A stretch of DNA of 64,000 nucleotides from Chryseobacterium sp. FP211-J200 (lineage in GTDB: Bacteria; Bacteroidota; Bacteroidia; Flavobacteriales; Weeksellaceae). Location of the stretch: assembly GCF_001643375.1 (NCBI RefSeq), contig NZ_LSHB01000002.1:1-64000 (forward strand). Direction: 5' to 3'. Below, piece after piece: positions 9,817 through 58,387 of this stretch. The notes below the pieces were generated by a model that was not told where the DNA came from, ran no database searches, and saw nothing but the letters and a program-made list of their open reading frames with translations. The stretch's first letter is position 1. Every line of letters begins with the position of its first letter. A program made the position numbers and the translations under genes.

Positions 9817-12189
9817 ATGAACAGAAAAATTAAACACGTTACAGTGCTTGGTTCCGGCGTTATGGGTTCCGGCATCGCCTGCCATTTGGCAGGAAACGGC
9901 ATTCAGGTTTTGATGTTGGATATGCCTCCGAAAGATTCGGAAAATGCCGACAAAAAAACAAGAAACAGCGTTGCGCAAGGTCATCTTAACAACGCTTTGA
10001 AAAGTAATCCTTCACCAATCTATGACAAATCCTTCGCTTCTAGAATTACCGTTGGAAACTTCGAAGATGATTTGGAAAAAATCAAAAATTCGGATTGGGT
10101 TATTGAAGTCATTGTCGAAAGATTGGACATCAAACAATCGATGTTCGAAAAAGTAGACAAACTGCGCAAACCAGGAACTTTGATTACTTCCAACACGTCT
10201 GGAATTCCAATTCACTTGATGTCAGAAGGAAGGTCAGAAGATTTCCAAAAGCATTTCTGTGGAACGCATTTCTTCAATCCGCCAAGATATTTGAAGTTGT
10301 TTGAAGTGATTCCAGGTCCGAAAACAGATCAATCTGTTGTGGATTTCTTTATGTCTTATGGCGAGAAATTCCTGGGAAAAACGACGGTTCTTTGTAAAGA
10401 TACCCCAGGATTTATCGGAAACAGAATCGGTGTTTATTCGATGGCAAAAATTATGGAATTGACAGAGGAAGTCGGTTTGACCATTGAAGAAGCGGATTCC
10501 TTAACAGGTGATTTGCTGCATCGCCCAAAAACAGGAACTTTCAAATTGGGAGATTTGGTTGGTTTAGATACAGCTTTCAACGTCACGAAAGGTCTTCAAG
10601 CCAATTTGAAAGACGACGAAATGGTTCAGGCTTTGAAAGATTCCAAAACTTTGAATCATTTAATTGAAAATAAATTCCTTGGCGATAAAGCGAAAAAAGG
10701 ATTCTATTATAAAGAAAAAGACGCTGGCGGAAATGTAAATCGTTTCGTTCTTAATTATGAAACGCTTGGTTACGAACCAACGAAACAGCCAAAACTTCCC
10801 ATCGTGAAAGCGGCGAAAGAAGCAGGAAGTTTGAAAAACCGTTTGCCAATTTTGTTGAAAGACCAAACCAAAGCTGGCGAATTGATTAGAAAACATTACG
10901 CTTCACTTTTCGCGTATGTTTCTCAGCGCGTTCCGGAAATCACCGATGTGTTCTACTCCATCGATGATGCGATGAAAACCGGTTATGCGTGGAAATATGG
11001 ACCATTTGAAAATTGGGATTTCTTAGGAATTCAGAAAGGAATCGATTTGGTGGAAAGCGAAGGCTATAAAGTGGCTGATTGGGTTAAGGAAATGCTGGCT
11101 TCCGGAAACGAATCTTTCTACAAATTGGAAAACGGAAAGCAGTTATTCTACAATCAAAATACAAAAACTTACGAACCAATTCCAGGTTTGGATGCTTTCA
11201 TTATTCTTGATAATATCAGAAAAGAAAAAACCATCTGGTCTAATTCTGAATCTGCCTTAATCGATCTTGGCGACGGCATTTTGAACTTCGAATTCCGTTC
11301 AAAAATGAACTCTTTAGGCGGAGGCGTTTTGGAAGGTCTTAATAAATCCATCGACATTGTTGAAAAAGATTACAGAGGTTTGGTTATAGGAAATCAGTCT
11401 GATAATTTCTCTGTAGGAGCAAACCTTGCAATGGTAATGATGATGGCCGTTGAACAAGATTGGTACGAACTGAATATGGCCATAAACCTATTCCAACAAA
11501 CATCAATGAAACTGAGATATTCATCAATACCAGTTATTGCGGCACCTTTCGGAATGACGCTTGGTGGCGGTTGCGAATTCTCGATGCATTCAGACAAAAT
11601 CGTTGCTGCGGCAGAAACTTATATCGGTTTGGTGGAAGTTGGCGTTGGTTTGATTCCAGGCGGTGGCGGAACGAAAGAGTTCGCTTTACGAGCTTTGAAA
11701 GGCGCTCTTCCTGATGATGTTAAAACGAATCATCTCCGTAATTACTTTATGAACATTGCAACCGCGAAAGTGGCAACTTCTGCTCACGAAGCTAAGCAAA
11801 TGGGAATTTTGACCGATAAAGATATCATCGTTGTTAACAAAGACCGACAAATTGCAGAAGCAAAACGTCAGGCGATTGTTTTGGACGAATTAGGATATAC
11901 TGCGCCAGTTCCGGAAAAAATTAAAGTCCTCGGAAAAGAATCAATGGGAATGTTCTACGTTGGAACAGACCAAATGGTTGCCGGCGGTTACGCTTCAGAA
12001 CACGACAGATTGATTGCCAACAAAATCGGTTACGTAATGACCGGCGGAAATCTCTCCGAACCAACAGAAGTTTCCGAACAATATCTTTTAGACCTCGAAA
12101 GAGAAGCATTCCTTTCACTTTGTGGCGAAAGAAAAACGCTTGAGAGAATTCAGACAATGTTAACTACTGGTAAGCCACTTAGAAACTAA
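9817..12189 (+). CDS. fadN: 3-hydroxyacyl-CoA dehydrogenase / enoyl-CoA hydratase (FadN-type)
   Basis: Catalyses hydration and dehydrogenation steps of fatty-acid beta-oxidation. The N-terminal NAD domain has the Rossmann motif GSGVMGSGIACHLAGNG; the 3-hydroxyacyl-CoA dehydrogenase active-site region is FCGTHFFNPPRYLKL followed by KDTPGFIGNRIG. A crotonase domain occupies roughly residues 500-720, with the oxyanion-hole segments FGMTLGGGCEFSMHSD and GLIPGGGGTKE. The domain order (dehydrogenase first, hydratase second) and the length of 790 residues match FadN of Bacillus rather than E. coli FadB, and the neighbours FadA and FadE complete the same trio. Confidence 0.92.
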   Translation: MNRKIKHVTVLGSGVMGSGIACHLAGNGIQVLMLDMPPKDSENADKKTRNSVAQGHLNNALKSNPSPIYDKSFASRITVGNFEDDLEKIKNSDWVIEVIVERLDIKQSMFEKVDKLRKPGTLITSNTSGIPIHLMSEGRSEDFQKHFCGTHFFNPPRYLKLFEVIPGPKTDQSVVDFFMSYGEKFLGKTTVLCKDTPGFIGNRIGVYSMAKIMELTEEVGLTIEEADSLTGDLLHRPKTGTFKLGDLVGLDTAFNVTKGLQANLKDDEMVQALKDSKTLNHLIENKFLGDKAKKGFYYKEKDAGGNVNRFVLNYETLGYEPTKQPKLPIVKAAKEAGSLKNRLPILLKDQTKAGELIRKHYASLFAYVSQRVPEITDVFYSIDDAMKTGYAWKYGPFENWDFLGIQKGIDLVESEGYKVADWVKEMLASGNESFYKLENGKQLFYNQNTKTYEPIPGLDAFIILDNIRKEKTIWSNSESALIDLGDGILNFEFRSKMNSLGGGVLEGLNKSIDIVEKDYRGLVIGNQSDNFSVGANLAMVMMMAVEQDWYELNMAINLFQQTSMKLRYSSIPVIAAPFGMTLGGGCEFSMHSDKIVAAAETYIGLVEVGVGLIPGGGGTKEFALRALKGALPDDVKTNHLRNYFMNIATAKVATSAHEAKQMGILTDKDIIVVNKDRQIAEAKRQAIVLDELGYTAPVPEKIKVLGKESMGMFYVGTDQMVAGGYASEHDRLIANKIGYVMTGGNLSEPTEVSEQYLLDLEREAFLSLCGERKTLERIQTMLTTGKPLRN

Positions 12190-12198
12190 TTTTTTTGT

Positions 12199-12226
12199 AA
12201 AATGTAAAAAGTATTAATGTATTAAC
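12199..12226. repeat. Left flank repeat of the four-helix-bundle gene
   Basis: Starts ATGTAAAAAGTATTAATG after TGTAA and runs up to the start codon at 12228. From 12196 it matches 31367-31393 in the trpB-trpA spacer with one mismatch in about 28 nt. It forms an inverted relation with the right flank (GTATTAATGTATT versus AATACATT). Confidence 0.75.
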
Positions 12227-12227
12227 G

Positions 12228-12590
12228 ATGCACAATTTTAGAGATTTAGAAGTTTGGACAAAATCAATGAAACTTTGTAAAGTATTTTACTTGGCTTCTA
12301 ACAATTTTCCAAAAGATGAATTGTTCGGATTAACTTCTCAAGCAAGAAGAAGTTTAATTTCAATTCCGTCTAACATTGCTGAAGGCGCTGGTCGTGATAC
12401 AAATGCTCAATTTTCTCATTTTCTGAATATTGCTTTAGGTTCATCATTCGAATTTGAAACTCAAATATTAATTGCTAATGATTTGGGATACTTTAAAAAT
12501 GATGATTTTAATAACATCTACTCTGAAATCAAACACATCCAAAATATGTTAGCAAAATTGAAGCAGAAATTTAATACTCAAACATTTTAA
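12228..12590 (+). CDS. Four-helix-bundle protein (23S rRNA IVP / S23 family)
   Basis: A 120-residue, all-helical protein of the family found in 23S rRNA intervening sequences and related to Avd of diversity-generating retroelements. The signature is clear: FRDLEVWTKSMKLCKVFY at the N-terminus, then LFGLTSQARRSLISIPSNIA, EGAGR and FLNIALGSSFEFETQILIA. Biochemical role is unknown; Avd is a basic nucleic-acid-binding pentamer. The gene interrupts the fadN-fadA transcription unit and is flanked tightly on both sides by repeats that recur as a short, gene-free hairpin between trpB and trpA. This suggests that the gene travels with, or occupies the loop of, a dispersed repeat. Confidence 0.88.
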   Translation: MHNFRDLEVWTKSMKLCKVFYLASNNFPKDELFGLTSQARRSLISIPSNIAEGAGRDTNAQFSHFLNIALGSSFEFETQILIANDLGYFKNDDFNNIYSEIKHIQNMLAKLKQKFNTQTF

Positions 12591-12628
12591 AATCATTAAT
12601 ACATTTTACATTAATACGTAAATACAAC
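12588..12628. repeat. Right flank repeat of the four-helix-bundle gene
   Basis: Starts at the stop codon and contains CATTAATACATTTTACATT then AATACGTAAATACAACAAAA. It matches 31407-31446 in the trpB-trpA spacer with about five mismatches in 39 nt. Confidence 0.75.
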
Positions 12629-12636
12629 AAAAAACA

Positions 12637-13812
12637 ATGGAAGCATATATAGTAACAGGATACAGAACAGCAGTTGGTAAAGCGCCGAAAGGTTCTTTGC
12701 GTTTTACACGCCCGGATGATATGGCGGCAACTGTGATACAACATCTGATGAAAGATGTTCCAAATCTTGACCCGGCTCGCATCGACGATTTGATTGTCGG
12801 TTGTGCAATGCCGGAAGCAGAACAAGGACTAAACGTCGCAAGATTGATTTCATTAATGGGATTGGATACCGACAAAGTTCCAGGCGTGACAGTGAACAGA
12901 TACTGCGCATCAGGTTCGGAAGCGATTGCGATTGCGGCGGCGAAAATCAAAGCCGGAATGGCGGAATGCATTATTGCTGGTGGTGCAGAAAGTATGTCAT
13001 ATATTCCGATGGGCGGTTACAAACCGATTCCAGATACGGATTTGGCAAAGAAACATCCCGATTATTATTGGGGGATGGGATTGACGGCGGAAGCAGTTGC
13101 CAACGAATTCAAAGTAAGTCGTGAGGAGCAGGACCAATTTGCTTACAACTCGCACCAGAAGGCAATGAAAGCCATCAAGGAAGGAAAATTTGAAAGCCAG
13201 ATTGTTCCGATTGATGTAGCATATAATTTCCTTGACGAAAAGGAAAAAATCCAGACCAAAGAATACGCCTTCAAACAAGACGAAGGTCCAAGGGCTGATA
13301 CTTCAGTAGAAGCGCTAGCGAAACTTCGTCCCGTTTTCGCAGCGAATGGTTCTGTAACTGCAGGTAATTCTTCTCAAACATCTGACGGTGCAGCTTTCAC
13401 AATGGTAATGTCCGAAAGAATGGTAAAAGAATTAAACTTAACTCCAGTTGCGAGACTTCTCTCCTATTCGACTGTCGGCGTTCCGCCAAGAATTATGGGA
13501 ATCGGGCCGATGTTCGCCATTCCAAAAGCGTTGGAACAAGCTGGACTTAAACAATCCGACATCGATTTGTTTGAATTGAATGAAGCTTTTGCTTCTCAGT
13601 CTGTTGCCATCTTAAGAGAATTGAATATCAATCCAGACATTGTCAACGTAAACGGAGGAGCCATCGCACTTGGACATCCACTTGGCTGTACAGGAACAAA
13701 ATTGACAGTCCAACTTCTTGACGAAATGAAACGCAGAAACAGCAAATACGGTGTTGTGACAATGTGCGTGGGAACTGGTCAGGGCGCGGCGAGTGTTTTT
13801 GAATTACTTTAA
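12637..13812 (+). CDS. fadA: Acetyl-CoA C-acyltransferase (3-ketoacyl-CoA thiolase)
   Basis: Thiolytic last step of beta-oxidation, releasing acetyl-CoA. The 391-residue protein has the acyl-accepting cysteine in VNRYCASGSEAI (about residue 90), the NEAFASQS motif, and the C-terminal GGAIALGHPLGCTGTK His and VVTMCVGTGQGAA Cys, so all catalytic residues are present. It lies downstream of fadN but is separated from it by the four-helix-bundle cassette. A DUF1016 gene and an acyl-CoA dehydrogenase gene follow on the same strand. Confidence 0.95.
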   Translation: MEAYIVTGYRTAVGKAPKGSLRFTRPDDMAATVIQHLMKDVPNLDPARIDDLIVGCAMPEAEQGLNVARLISLMGLDTDKVPGVTVNRYCASGSEAIAIAAAKIKAGMAECIIAGGAESMSYIPMGGYKPIPDTDLAKKHPDYYWGMGLTAEAVANEFKVSREEQDQFAYNSHQKAMKAIKEGKFESQIVPIDVAYNFLDEKEKIQTKEYAFKQDEGPRADTSVEALAKLRPVFAANGSVTAGNSSQTSDGAAFTMVMSERMVKELNLTPVARLLSYSTVGVPPRIMGIGPMFAIPKALEQAGLKQSDIDLFELNEAFASQSVAILRELNINPDIVNVNGGAIALGHPLGCTGTKLTVQLLDEMKRRNSKYGVVTMCVGTGQGAASVFELL

Positions 13813-30191: not shown

Positions 30192-31370
30192 ATGAACTTT
30201 CAAAACCCAGATAAAAATGGCTACTACGGCAATTTCGGAGGTGCTTTCGTTCCTGAAATGCTTTACCCGAACGTTGCCGAATTACAGGAAAAATACATCC
30301 AGATCATCGAATCTGAAGAATTCCAAACTGAGTTTCAGGACTTGCTGAAAAACTATGTCGGACGCGCTACGCCGCTCTATTTCGCAAAAAATCTGAGCGA
30401 AAAATATCAGACGCAGATCTATCTGAAAAGAGAAGATTTGAATCACACTGGAGCACACAAGATCAACAATGCTTTGGGACAAGCTTTGTTAGCTAAAAAA
30501 TTGGGGAAACACAGGATCATTGCAGAAACCGGCGCCGGTCAACACGGCGTTGCAACTGCGACTGCTTGTGCGTTGTTAGGTCTTGAATGCATCGTTTACA
30601 TGGGCGAAGTCGACATTGCAAGACAATCTCCTAATGTTGCCCGAATGAAAATGCTTGGTGCAACCGTAATTCCCGCAACTTCCGGTTCCAAAACCTTGAA
30701 AGATGCGGTGAATGAAGCCTTGAGAGATTGGATCAACAATCCGGAATCTACACATTACATCATCGGAAGCGTGGTTGGCCCGCATCCTTTTCCAGATCTT
30801 GTCGCAAGATTCCAAAGTGTGATCTCGAAGGAGATCAAAGAACAACTGAATGAGAAGATAGGTAGAGAAAATCCAGATTACCTGATTGCCTGCGTTGGCG
30901 GCGGTAGTAATGCGGCAGGGACTTTTTACCATTATGTGAATGAAGAAAGTGTGAAGATCATTGCGGCTGAAGCTGGTGGTTTTGGCGTCGATTCAGGAAA
31001 ATCTGCAGCCACCACTTTTCTTGGAACTTTAGGAATTCTGCACGGAAGCCAAAGTCTTGTAATGCAGACGGAAGACGGTCAAGTCATCGAACCTCATTCT
31101 ATTTCCGCAGGTTTGGATTATCCTGGAATTGGACCAATGCACGCCAATCTTTTCAGAGAGAATCGCGCTGAGTTTTTCAGTATCAATGACGATGAAGCTT
31201 TGAAATCTGCTTTTGAACTGACAAAGATAGAAGGCATCATTCCAGCTCTAGAAAGCGCGCACGCTTTGGCGGTTTTGGATAAAAAGAAATTCGAGAAGGA
31301 TGATGTGGTGGTGATCTGTCTTAGCGGTCGAGGTGATAAGGATATGGAGACTTATTTGAAACATCTGTAA
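30192..31370 (+). CDS. trpB: Tryptophan synthase beta chain
   Basis: PLP enzyme that joins indole and serine. The 392-residue protein has the PLP lysine in [15 protein letters not shown], the phosphate cup [12 protein letters not shown], and the conserved [20 protein letters not shown] and [14 protein letters not shown] segments. It is the TrpB1 type that pairs with TrpA. The stop codon runs directly into the hairpin repeat that separates it from trpA by 76 nt, unusual for these normally tightly coupled subunits. Confidence 0.97.
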
Positions 31371-31446
31371 AATGTAAAACGTATTAATGTATTTATGACC
31401 TCAGAATCGTTAATACATTTTACGTCAATACTTTAATACAACAAAA
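31367..31446. repeat. Empty counterpart of the four-helix-bundle cassette repeats
   Basis: The trpB-trpA spacer joins a left half (TGTAAAATGTAAAACG then TATTAATGTATT) and a right half (CGTTAATACATTTTACGTC then AATACTTTAATACAACAAAA) through a loop of about 13 nt. These halves match the two sides of the four-helix-bundle gene at 12228-12590 (one mismatch in 28, about five in 39). AATGTATT and AATACATT give an 8-bp stem. Confidence 0.75.
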
Positions 31447-32181
31447 ATGAAAAAACTAAACATATACTTCACAGCCGGAGTACCCGAGCTGGAATACACA
31501 GGAAAAATAGCCAAACTGATCCAAGATTCTGGAGCGGATATGATGGAAATTGGGATTCCGTATTCTGATCCTGTTGCGGATGGACCTGTGATCCAGGATG
31601 CGCATTCTTTGGCTTTGAAAAACGGAATGAGCATCAAAAAACTATTCGAACAATTAGGAGAAGTCAAGGATTCTGTGACGATTCCTAAGATCTTAATGGG
31701 ATATTTAAATCCAGTTCTGCAATTTGGGTTCGAGAACTTTTGTCAGAAATGTGCGGAAGTGGGCGTTTCGGGACTGATCATTCCAGATCTTCCGCCAATT
31801 GCCTTTGAAAATCAATATGGTGAGATCCTTAAGAAGTACAATCTGAATTTTACTTTTCTCGTAACGCCGGAAACTTCGGAAGAACGCATCCAATATTTGG
31901 ATTCTTTGAGTTCTGGATTTTTGTACGCAGTAAGTTCATCTTCCACCACAGGCAATGCAAACGCTGTTTTGAAGAACGAAGATTACCTGAACAGATTAGC
32001 TTCTTTGAACTTAACAAATCCAGTTTTCATCGGATTCGGGATCAAGGATAAATCGGATTTTGAAAATGTGACCGAGAAAGCTCAAGGCGGAATTATCGGG
32101 ACGGCTTTCGTCAAGATCTTGTTGGAAAATAATGATTGGGAAGCGAAAGGGAAAGCGTTTATTGAAGGTGTGAAAAATTAG
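31447..32181 (+). CDS. trpA: Tryptophan synthase alpha chain
   Basis: Cleaves indole-3-glycerol phosphate to indole, which is channelled to TrpB. The 244-residue TIM barrel has the catalytic Glu in DMMEIGIPYSDPVADGP, the Asp-containing GLIIPDLPP, FLYAVSSSSTTGNAN (loop 6) and FIGFGIKDKSDF, and GGIIGTAFVKILLE near the end. All seven trp functions are therefore present in this cluster. A secreted hypothetical protein gene follows 13 nt later. Confidence 0.96.
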   Translation: MKKLNIYFTAGVPELEYTGKIAKLIQDSGADMMEIGIPYSDPVADGPVIQDAHSLALKNGMSIKKLFEQLGEVKDSVTIPKILMGYLNPVLQFGFENFCQKCAEVGVSGLIIPDLPPIAFENQYGEILKKYNLNFTFLVTPETSEERIQYLDSLSSGFLYAVSSSSTTGNANAVLKNEDYLNRLASLNLTNPVFIGFGIKDKSDFENVTEKAQGGIIGTAFVKILLENNDWEAKGKAFIEGVKN

Positions 32182-32194
32182 TCACTTCCCTAGA

Positions 32195-32887
32195 ATGAAA
32201 ATTTTTACAATCATATTATTCTCCTGTTTCTCAACATTCATATCTGCTCAAATTTGCAGTTGTTCAGAGACACCATATCTTGACGATCTAATTTCTTGCA
32301 AGACCACAGCGTTTCAAAACGGTACAAAAATCTATTGGGAGTTTGATTGTAACTCATCTTGGATCACGTTTCAAAATGGTGCGTTGAAAAAGAAAATATT
32401 TGAACTGGACAAAGATGAAATGGAATTCAGTGGACGATTAGGTTATAAGAGTTGGACAGAATTTGGCAATTCTTTTTTAATTGAAAACAGTGTTGTTTCA
32501 GGTTGTTGTCAACCAGATGAGTATATTCTTTACGATAAAATTACGGGTGATAAAATATCAGATCTTGGAACATTGGTCTTCATTGAGAAAATTGGAGAGA
32601 AGCCATTTGTCTTAACAATAAAAAACAATGATGATCTGATTTTTACGAACCTGAACGATAATAAGTCTTATGTAGTGAAAATCCCAAAAGATAAGATCGC
32701 AAAGACGTTGGAAAACTCAAATGAATTATATGCTGAAAATCTGTTCGGTAATGTTCAAATAAAAAACGGATTGTTATCAATAGAATTGAAATATAAAATT
32801 TCAAAGAAACGCAAATGGAAAAAGGAAATTATAACATTTGATGTGAACAAAGCTGAAAATAATCATCGACAGTCTGCATTGCAATAG
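32195..32887 (+). CDS. Hypothetical secreted protein
   Basis: No family recognised. A 230-residue protein with a signal peptide (IILFSCFSTFISAQ) and cysteine-rich mature N-terminus (CSCSETPYLDDLISC) plus a later VVSGCCQPDEYILYD. The cysteines could form disulfides in the periplasm. It starts 13 nt after trpA, so it may be read from the trp transcript. The last residues (NNHRQSALQ) run into repeat copy C, so the original C-terminus may have been altered by the repeat. Confidence 0.7.
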   Translation: MKIFTIILFSCFSTFISAQICSCSETPYLDDLISCKTTAFQNGTKIYWEFDCNSSWITFQNGALKKKIFELDKDEMEFSGRLGYKSWTEFGNSFLIENSVVSGCCQPDEYILYDKITGDKISDLGTLVFIEKIGEKPFVLTIKNNDDLIFTNLNDNKSYVVKIPKDKIAKTLENSNELYAENLFGNVQIKNGLLSIELKYKISKKRKWKKEIITFDVNKAENNHRQSALQ

Positions 32888-33010
32888 GGATAGAAGTGGT
32901 TATCCTTTTTGTTTTTTGCGTGGGGAAAAGCTTCGGGAAAAACAAAAAGATAGTAACGGATAGCCCGGCCCGAGCGGCGGCCTTAGTGTTGGCGAGGGAT
33001 TGCCCAAATG
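32886..33010. repeat. Dispersed intergenic hairpin repeat, copy C
   Basis: Contains GGGATAGAAGTGGTTATCC, CAAAAAGATAGTAACGGATAG, AGCCCGGCCCGAGCGG and ends GATTGCCCAAAT. Its AGCCCGGCCCGAGCGG core and GCCCAAA end match the corresponding parts of copies A and B (AGCCCGGCTTGAGTGG; TTTGGGCAACTTATCC). Markedly GC-rich for this window. Confidence 0.7.
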
Positions 33011-56259: not shown

Positions 56260-56976
56260 GTGAATTCTCTCATCAATAAAAAAGTAAGGTTCCAGGATCT
56301 CGGCACCAAAGATTATCAGCCGACTTGGGACTATCAGGAAGAATTACTCAAACAGAATCTTGATATCAAGATCCAGAACAGGGAAAATCCAGAAGACCTG
56401 AAAATAACAAACAATCATCTTCTTTTTGTAGAGCATCCGCACGTTTATACTTTAGGAAAAAGCGGGCACGAGTCCAATCTTCTCGCCAACGAAAAAAAGC
56501 TGAAAGAAATAGAAGCCACTTACGTCAAAGTCAACCGAGGCGGCGATATCACTTATCACGGTTTTGGTCAGGTTGTCGGCTACCCTATTCTTGATTTGGA
56601 AAATTTCTACACAGACATCCATCGTTACATGCGCGATCTGGAGGAAGTCATCATCCGAACCATTGCAGAATATGGTTTGATTGGCGAACGTTCTCCTGGC
56701 GAAACCGGCGTTTGGTTTGATGTGGGAAAACCTTATGCAAGAAAAATATGCGCTTTGGGTGTAAAAGCTTCACGATGGATCACGATCCATGGTTTTGCAC
56801 TGAATGTAAATACCGATATGCGGTACTTCGATTACATCATTCCTTGTGGGATCTCTGATAAACAAGTGACTTCTATGAAAAGAGAACTGGAGAAGGAAGT
56901 TGATTATGAAGAAGTAAAAGAGAAGATAAAAAAACATTTTGCTGATGTTTTTGGATGTGACCTTTTTTATAAGTGA
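56260..56976 (+). CDS. lipB: Lipoyl(octanoyl) transferase
   Basis: Transfers octanoyl from ACP to lipoyl domains, first step of lipoate synthesis. The 238-residue protein has the FVEHPHVYTLGKSGHESNLL region, the RGGDITYHGFGQVVGYPILD core with the conserved Gly and His, and GVKASRWITIHGFALNVNTD, then PCGISDKQVTSM with the active-site Cys. The start is GTG, as no ATG precedes RBS-like DNA at the right distance. It converges with dgt across an inverted-repeat spacer. Confidence 0.95.
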   Translation: MNSLINKKVRFQDLGTKDYQPTWDYQEELLKQNLDIKIQNRENPEDLKITNNHLLFVEHPHVYTLGKSGHESNLLANEKKLKEIEATYVKVNRGGDITYHGFGQVVGYPILDLENFYTDIHRYMRDLEEVIIRTIAEYGLIGERSPGETGVWFDVGKPYARKICALGVKASRWITIHGFALNVNTDMRYFDYIIPCGISDKQVTSMKRELEKEVDYEEVKEKIKKHFADVFGCDLFYK

Positions 56977-57028
56977 TAATTGATAAACGATTTTAAATCA
57001 ACTATCATTTATCAATCATCAATTATAA
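56967..57028. repeat. Convergent-gene inverted repeat, TTATAA..TGATAAA
   Basis: Arms of 25 nt (56967-56991 and 57004-57028) agree at 22 positions when inverted and enclose 12 nt. It reaches into the last codons of lipB and touches the dgt stop, so it probably ends both transcripts; the left arm recurs at 43561-43591. Confidence 0.65.
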
Positions 57029-58387
57029 TTACATCGTCATCCCGATATCAATCCCCTTGATCTTTCTGTAAAGGTCGGTCGCAAAATTATCCGTCATTCC
57101 CGTAACAAAATCCAGAACACCCAACGTTTTCTGATAAACTGTCGCATCATCATAGATGAATTGCTGTGGAATCAGTTTCAAGGCCATTTTATCGTATGAT
57201 TTACGTTCGTCTTTTTCCTTGATGATCGATGGAACGAAATGATTCAGAAGTTCATACATGACGTTGTAACCAGCATTTTCTATTTCTATCACGGCTTTGT
57301 GATTGTAGATCTTCTCGATGGAGAAACGCTCTATCTCGGTCAATGAGGAACTTTCGGTTTTGAAGATATCAAGAATGCCTTTGTCCAGACTTCCGTCCAA
57401 GATCTTATCGAAATTACTTTTATAAAGCTCAATGGTTTTATTGATGAGAGAATTGATCACCTTCGCTCTCAGATAAGAGATCCTTTCGTTTTTATTGGTA
57501 ATAATTCCCAGCTTGTCTCCTACTCTTTTGATGTCGTCGGGATTTACGGATCTCACTAGATCAAGAAATAGGTTTTCGCAATCCTCCGTATTCACAATTC
57601 CGAGTCTGTGCGCATCTTCCATATCGATGATGTTGTAGCAGATGTCGTCCGCCGCTTCTACCAACCAAACGAATGGATGTCTTTTGAAGATCACAGGCTC
57701 ATCATGTTCAATCATCATTCCTGTAGATCTTGCAATATCCAAAAACTGTTGTTTTTCATTTTGGAAGAATCCAAATTTCTTACGGTTGATCACACCTTTT
57801 TTCTTAGCGATGGATTCACATGGATATTTGGCAATGCTTGCCAAAGTAGTGTAAGTCAGTTGTGCGCCACCTTCGTCTTTACCTTGTTGCTTATGCGTGA
57901 GAACACGGATTGCGTTGGCATTCCCTTCGAAGTTGACAAGGTCGCCCCACTCTTTTTCACTGAATTTAGATTTTAATTGATTTTCATTCTTCTCGAAGTA
58001 ACTCGCAATTGCATCTTCTCCCGAATGTCCGAAAGCCGGATTTCCAATGTCGTGACAAAGGCAAGCCGATGCGATCACATTGTGCAATTGGTGTTGATAA
58101 AAATCCTTTGACAGATCACTAATATCATCATGATAAGTTTCTGAAATATATTCACCAGCCAAACTTCCCAAACTACGGCCTACAGAGGCCACTTCCAACG
58201 AGTGCGTCAATCTATTGTGCACAAAAACACTTCCTGGCAAAGGGAAAACCTGCGTTTTGTTTTGAAGTCTTCGGAAAGCGGAAGAGAAAATGATGCGGTC
58301 AAAATCTCTTTGAAAATCTGTTCTGGAAACCACGTTCTGCTGGTGATTTCCGGTGCGCTGATTGGTGAAAATTGTGTTCAGTTCCAT
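57029..58387 (-). CDS. dgt: dGTPase (HD-domain dNTP triphosphohydrolase)
   Basis: Hydrolyses dGTP, and in this class other dNTPs, to nucleoside plus tripolyphosphate. The 452-residue HD protein begins FTNQRTGNHQQNVVSRTDFQ and shows the metal ligands H...HD...D in FVHNRLTHSLEVASV, CLCHDIGNPAFGHSGEDA and LVEAADDICYNIIDMED. Length and motif spacing match bacterial type 2 dGTPases. A TAnnTTTG box lies 8 nt before the ATG at 58387. Confidence 0.95.
   Translation of the reverse strand: MELNTIFTNQRTGNHQQNVVSRTDFQRDFDRIIFSSAFRRLQNKTQVFPLPGSVFVHNRLTHSLEVASVGRSLGSLAGEYISETYHDDISDLSKDFYQHQLHNVIASACLCHDIGNPAFGHSGEDAIASYFEKNENQLKSKFSEKEWGDLVNFEGNANAIRVLTHKQQGKDEGGAQLTYTTLASIAKYPCESIAKKKGVINRKKFGFFQNEKQQFLDIARSTGMMIEHDEPVIFKRHPFVWLVEAADDICYNIIDMEDAHRLGIVNTEDCENLFLDLVRSVNPDDIKRVGDKLGIITNKNERISYLRAKVINSLINKTIELYKSNFDKILDGSLDKGILDIFKTESSSLTEIERFSIEKIYNHKAVIEIENAGYNVMYELLNHFVPSIIKEKDERKSYDKMALKLIPQQFIYDDATVYQKTLGVLDFVTGMTDNFATDLYRKIKGIDIGMTM

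Follow-up and report, generated by a model that had tools for sequence, protein, structure and literature searches.

An IVP-family gene in the loop of a dispersed inverted repeat between fadN and fadA of Chryseobacterium

A gene-bearing hairpin in the fadN–fadA spacer

The spacer between the fadN-like and fadA genes of Chryseobacterium sp. FP211-J200 holds a small gene of the IVP (four-helix-bundle) family that fills the loop of an inverted repeat, and the same repeat arms recur, joined to each other with no gene between them, in other operon spacers of this genome. We consider it fairly probable (about 0.6) that the element at 12196–12628 is one gene-bearing representative of a large family of operon-spacer elements bounded by hairpins, the IVP protein of which would aid their persistence or spread. 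Coordinates refer to the window, that is, the whole 64,000-nucleotide stretch of DNA that was analysed, and the features are collected in Table 1.

Table 1. Genes and repeat arms at the gene-bearing (fadN–fadA) and gene-less (trpB–trpA) junctions of the window
Feature	Position	Strand	Remarks
fadN-like 3-hydroxyacyl-CoA dehydrogenase/enoyl-CoA hydratase, upstream host gene	9817..12189	+	NCBIfam NF052272, 638 bits, below model cut-off
Left (5') arm of inverted repeat	12196..12226	+	TGTAAAATGTAAAAAGTATTAATGTATTAAC; pairs with right arm in predicted fold
IVP/four-helix-bundle gene in loop	12228..12590	+	120 aa; PF05635, TIGR02436
Right (3') arm of inverted repeat	12591..12628	+	AATCATTAATACATTTTACATTAATACGTAAATACAAC; pairs with left arm in predicted fold
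fadA acetyl-CoA acyltransferase, downstream host gene	12637..13812	+	TIGR01930, above cut-off
trpB	30192..31370	+	TIGR00263; stop codon within left arm of gene-less hairpin
Left arm, gene-less trpB–trpA hairpin	31366..31398	+	
Right arm, gene-less trpB–trpA hairpin	31405..31442	+	Fold -15.7 kcal/mol, z -2.6
trpA	31447..32181	+	TIGR00262

The left arm, which carries the words GTAAAAT/GTATTAAT and nearly lacks C, abuts the start codon of the IVP gene, and the right arm, in which G is nearly absent, abuts its stop codon. An earlier inspection of the same DNA (hereafter the sequence-only reading) had described an IVP gene filling the loop of an inverted repeat, and both the arms and the PF05635 match confirm this. 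It had also placed the elements between metabolic operon genes of the same orientation, in agreement with the profile matches to FadN-like and FadA and to TrpB and TrpA, all on the + strand.

The product of the loop gene scores above the curated cut-offs of PF05635 (23S-rRNA-intervening-sequence/four-helix-bundle; E 3e-38, 130.7 bits against a cut-off of 33.8) and TIGR02436 (120.6 bits, cut-off 24), and its AlphaFold model (pLDDT 93) consists of four helices. The structures closest to the model are 2gsc and 2rld, both members of the IVP protein family; next come Avd (4dwl; Foldseek E 0.02, TM about 0.77 at 7% identity) and the chains of Avd in the complex from diversity-generating retroelements (DGRs). 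Profiles and fold thus agree with the earlier assignment to an IVP/Avd-like four-helix-bundle family. Avd operates together with a reverse transcriptase. The IVP protein shares its fold with Avd; unlike the DGR accessory protein, however, it has no linked reverse transcriptase, the genome that carries it giving no RVT_1 match, and an Avd/reverse-transcriptase mechanism is therefore unlikely there. Among 23 congeneric genomes, 9 have any RVT_1 match. In the literature, PF05635 has been tied to rRNA insertions (PMC4990558, PMC11270868), DGR-type systems (PMC10053308), and cas loci (PMC3936711), and it is described as unclear what IVP proteins do and how the rRNA intervening sequences arose (PMC4990558).

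Gene-less copies of the hairpin in the same genome

At the trpB–trpA junction, about a dozen bases form the loop that joins the arms. The left arms of the two loci differ at 1 of 28 nt (12196–12223 versus 31366–31393) and the right arms at 5 positions in about 43 nt (12591–12633 versus 31405–31447), so the same repeat halves are indeed joined by a short loop between trpB and trpA, as had been noticed at the outset. The left-arm pattern (at most 3 mismatches) has two matches in the window, exactly at both loci, where shuffles expect 0.00; the right-arm pattern likewise has 2 matches, against 0.05 expected. Extending the search for the repeat halves to the whole 4.1-Mb genome, as the sequence-only reading had recommended, revealed that the arms are dispersed: the left-arm pattern (at most 3 mismatches) matches 12 times, compared to a single match for the reversed-pattern control. 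Among the matches read with their flanks were seven complete gene-less hairpins, all of them in spacers of codirectional genes, namely, trpB–trpA, purM–purN, before aroA, before a GatB/YqeY-type gene, mraY–murD, nuoE–nuoD, and accD–fbaA (gene names beyond fadN, fadA, trpB, and trpA were read from N-termini).

IVP genes lie between matching arms in the genus and beyond

The genome contains five PF05635 matches, every one between matching arms whose words are specific to the locus. The 23 congeners have about 115 such matches (1 to 9 per genome), from which 112 IVP loci were extracted; keeping a single locus for each combination of junction and IVP type (under 60% identity) left 43 independent loci. 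We scored the arms by local alignment of the upstream flank with the reverse complement of the downstream flank; 384 other genes tightly packed among codirectional neighbours, a set cleaned of other repeat-borne genes, served as controls. The median arm score was 19.5 at the IVP loci versus 10 at the control genes, and scores of at least 16 were reached at 34 of the 43 IVP loci versus 15 of the 384 controls (Mann–Whitney p 6e-23). When arms were swapped between loci, the median fell to 10, the control level; hence, arms match their partners within the locus. At 41 of the 43 loci, the genes on both sides are codirectional with the IVP gene (background, about 64%), and the gaps from the IVP gene to its neighbours measure about 40–45 nt, which means that the arms make up essentially the whole spacer.

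The composition of the arms is asymmetric, with a G:C ratio of 308:127 in the upstream spacers of IVP genes and 119:285 in the downstream ones, versus 5204:5963 in the control. The arms are effectively three-letter sequences, the 5' arm being C-poor and the 3' arm G-poor, a composition that should stop each arm from folding on itself. The idea that G-rich left and C-rich right arms serve as an orientation mark was rejected because a palindrome looks alike on both strands.

The arm words are short, degenerate, and partly tandem, as might be expected if low-complexity dispersed repeats had gathered in AT-rich spacers by slippage and the gene in the loop were there by coincidence. Coincidence is, however, excluded by the comparisons across loci and with control genes, as well as by dinucleotide shuffles (scores of at least 16 in 57 of the 631 codirectional spacers from the genus, versus 5 in the shuffles), and we regard this explanation as highly improbable.

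Outside the genus, 39 loci in other genera and families of the order share the arm–gene–arm layout, which is also found at named loci from Pedobacter, Pontibacter, Hymenobacter, and Chitinophagaceae. Across GTDB, 77 loci were scored, including single metagenome contigs labelled Nitrospinia, Planctomycetales, and CPR. Judging from downstream N-termini and flank alignment, the fadN–fadA junction itself carries an IVP in several other genera. The suggestion that other four-helix-bundle genes might have the same flanks is accordingly borne out for the presence of matching arms, genus-wide and beyond, but not for the words, which differ from locus to locus.

Relation between IVP proteins and arm words

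Across different junctions, IVP identity correlates with the similarity of arm words (Mantel rho 0.136, with 4 of 2000 permutations as high at k=5; 40 representatives, the signal coming mostly from the closest pairs). One IVP type occurs with the same words at two places, before carB and before a GatB/YqeY-type gene. Genomes with the IVP of the window contain on average 6.0 TTAATACATTTTAC repeats versus 2.2 in those without it (one-sided p 0.03, phylogeny ignored); the repeat counts track the IVP imperfectly, three genomes (G011, G014, and G021) having the gene and few repeats and one (G015) having 8 repeats, yet not the gene. These sequence comparisons support, without proving, a cognate relation between the IVP protein and the words of its arms.

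Junction occupants are exchanged among congeners

At fadN–fadA, the 23 congeners carry an IVP with TTAATACATTTTAC arms (6/23), a different IVP with GACAAGAG arms (4/23), a third IVP with TTAGATATTAGAAG arms (1/23), a Y1 transposase within a REP hairpin rich in GC (intact in 5/23, degraded in 2/23), another ORF (1/23), or a truly empty spacer (4/23). The trpB–trpA junction contains the TTAATACATTTTAC hairpin in 11 genomes and, in the remaining ones, either a different word family or an ORF, and mraY–murD is a short spacer without a hairpin in eight genomes and holds one of three word families in the others. On a tree of the 23 species, built from three genes with the parts next to the junctions omitted, these distributions require minimally 13 (fadN–fadA), 9 (trpB–trpA), and 8 (mraY–murD) changes of state. 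The occupants of the junctions are exchanged among congeners.

The sequence-only reading was to be given up if the flanks were unique or if all relatives carried the same gene and spacer at both positions; the flanks turned out to be dispersed in the genome, and fadN–fadA and trpB–trpA are each polymorphic across the 23 congeners, with some sites truly empty. Its notion of filled and empty forms needs amending: both were seen, but there are three states, with some relatives having no hairpin at all at the junction. As in DNA transposons and MITEs, terminal inverted repeats are accompanied by empty sites in relatives, and "MITE-like" is a plausible analogy for the element. Dispersed flanks and polymorphic junctions agree with the mobile element first suggested, but fresh transposition and target duplication were not seen: no target-site duplication was evident by eye at the junctions compared, where the spacer is replaced rather than split, and no recent copy pair was found at two junctions within one genome. 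The one identical pair, in genome G093, was considered as a moved element but lies within a duplication that spans at least 4.3 kb. In viral contigs, a search for the exact 22-nt right arm gave no match. Exchange between species of ready-made junction cassettes explains much of the pattern.

Some occupants deserve separate mention. The Y1-type transposase (PF01797) lies in the REP hairpin gcctcgtagaggcgacctgataat and is intact at five fadN–fadA loci (L084, L085, L088, L091, and L096), with only remnants at L074 and L078. At fadN–fadA of G017 (L093), the right arm is present twice, and the IVP stop codon comes from the right arm. In four genomes (G002, G005, G016, and G018; loci L071, L061, L070, and L057), the arms of the trpB–trpA hairpin extend into coding sequence, altering the C-terminus of TrpB and/or lengthening the N-terminus of TrpA. 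Other ORFs without obvious hairpins occupy fadN–fadA in G015 (L080) and trpB–trpA in G006 (L065) and G003 (L069).

Divergence and selection

In congeners, dN of the IVP gene is well below dS, and the gene is under purifying selection. In most pairs, the dS of the element is below that of the upstream gene end. For the two main fadN–fadA IVP families, the dS of the IVP gene is below that of full-length fadA in 21 of 21 pairs, and the left arm is 95–100% identical within the family of the window's IVP. The IVP dS is likewise below that of the upstream gene end in 27/28, 9/10, 6/10, and 3/3 pairs of other IVP families; in the VAREF/MTASF family, this holds for only 2/6 pairs because two different IVPs occupy the same junction. 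The lower dS of the IVP gene was considered as proof of transfer, an argument weakened by the fact that the first 300 nt of fadA have low dS also in genomes with empty sites; the fadN-side and tree evidence is retained. Constraint can account for part of the low dS, and the tree data are most simply read as exchange between species.

The hairpins could also be host structures serving regulation or operon processing, with the IVP gene as cargo, no mobilization by IVP, and all variety produced by homologous recombination between the flanks. IVP copies of one kind are mostly confined to one junction, divergence within orthologous junctions is low in a recombination-like manner, and species whose flanking genes have a dS of about 1 still share about 92% identity in the trp hairpin, as would fit a conserved function. 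Passive cassettes leave unexplained, however, why IVP genes lie inside matching arms (34/43 loci), why related IVPs at different junctions have related words, and why truly empty sites occur between species with close flanks, and we judge this explanation rather unlikely.

RNA pairing and transcription signals

If the element acted as an intervening sequence at the RNA level, RNase III would excise it from the mRNA as in 23S rRNA, and selection would operate on the RNA stem. Its anatomy equals that of the Coxiella intervening sequence, in which an ORF of the PF05635 family lies between terminal inverted repeats that form a 28-bp stem and excision is by RNase III (PMC4990558), and the codirectionality with transcription at 41/43 loci points the same way. 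The signatures of such selection are nonetheless absent: the arms display no excess of G–U over A–C mismatches (34 versus 45) and no compensatory changes were found in the trp hairpin, so that maintenance of RNA pairing is unsupported, and the 453-nt fold of the gene-bearing element is just 1 sd better than shuffles. We consider this alternative unlikely. In both elements, promoter-like matches remained within about one sd of shuffles, and the scan for terminators yielded no terminator-like site.

Comparison with known systems and a possible mechanism

Like the 23S rRNA intervening sequences of Leptospira and Coxiella, the element at 12196–12628 has terminal inverted repeats around an ORF for a PF05635 protein, and those sequences similarly have a sporadic distribution and forms with and without the ORF (PMC4990558). 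Unlike them, it resides not inside a 23S rRNA gene but at an mRNA operon junction, between fadN and fadA, and a genome contains several such elements, each having arm words of its own, with gene-less copies at many unrelated junctions. The resemblance to REP/REPIN and RAYT (TnpA-REP) systems lies in a small intergenic gene flanked by palindromic repeats, in the dispersed extragenic palindromes of the same genome that lack the gene, and in the use of the fadN–fadA junction, where RAYT is the alternative occupant in seven congeners (two degraded). RAYT is, however, a Y1 (HUH) nuclease, whereas the loop gene here encodes a PF05635 protein, a family without a known nuclease fold, and the REPs in the cases at hand are short and GC-rich, whereas IVP arms are 30–90 nt long, AT-rich, and composed of degenerate words. 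A GTAG/CGTC tetranucleotide beside the palindrome is described for REP/RAYT systems (PMC3733652). We call the element a protein-operon counterpart of the rRNA intervening sequences and the REP/RAYT elements. A search of the open literature found no report of IVP genes within operon hairpins; provisionally, then, such elements are apparently undescribed so far, as the sequence-only reading had supposed for the pairing of an IVP gene with a dispersed hairpin.

In the reading that we favour, the hairpin-bounded family, the unit would be 5' arm–IVP gene–3' arm, read along the direction of the operon, and the gene-less hairpins with the same words, at trpB–trpA and elsewhere, would be non-autonomous or decayed members. 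By analogy with the 23S rRNA intervening sequences, the arms may pair around the IVP reading frame in the operon transcript, and an RNase III-type cut could free the reading frame, which would be tolerated because of its location between genes. Since the IVP protein is a pentamer-type relative of Avd, which binds nucleic acids, its most likely ligand is its own hairpin, as RNA or single-stranded DNA, an inference modelled on the Coxiella intervening sequence and REP/RAYT. The protein might thereby help the cassette to persist or spread, as RAYT does for REP hairpins, and spread between species would for the most part occur when junction cassettes are exchanged via the conserved genes on either side.

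More tentatively, and with more doubt than belief on our part, IVPs might be dedicated, word-specific, non-nuclease partners of operon hairpins throughout bacteria, driving the copying, replacement, or maintenance of both forms; the rRNA intervening sequences would then be no more than the most familiar of the sites where a general system of mobile hairpins has settled. A nuclease-free protein family joins the genes that live with palindromic repeats, and the systematic presence of IVP genes in locus-specific operon hairpins makes binding, processing, and movement directly testable, with one genus offering dozens of natural replicates together with empty, gene-less, and alternative-occupant controls. 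IVP hairpin elements may also account for a share of the odd intergenic hairpins of Flavobacteriales.

Other hairpins and hairpin-borne genes

Codirectional spacers of the genus contain many gene-less hairpins of other word families, for example, TTTAACCACAAAGAACACAAAG. In the window, a hairpin at 56972–57034, between convergent genes, consists of GATAATTGATAAACGAT words; the same words make up the arms in a further IVP subfamily (cluster 8), of which no member was found in this genome. A Flavo-1 RNA (RF01705, 55.8 bits) is located at 32879–32974. Small genes of the PD-(D/E)XK_3 (GxxExxY) and GIY-YIG families, which, unlike IVP, are nuclease families, also lie between matching inverted-repeat flanks in this genus (e.g., a 126-aa product in G006 and a 98-aa product in G003), which suggests that several small gene families inhabit such hairpins.
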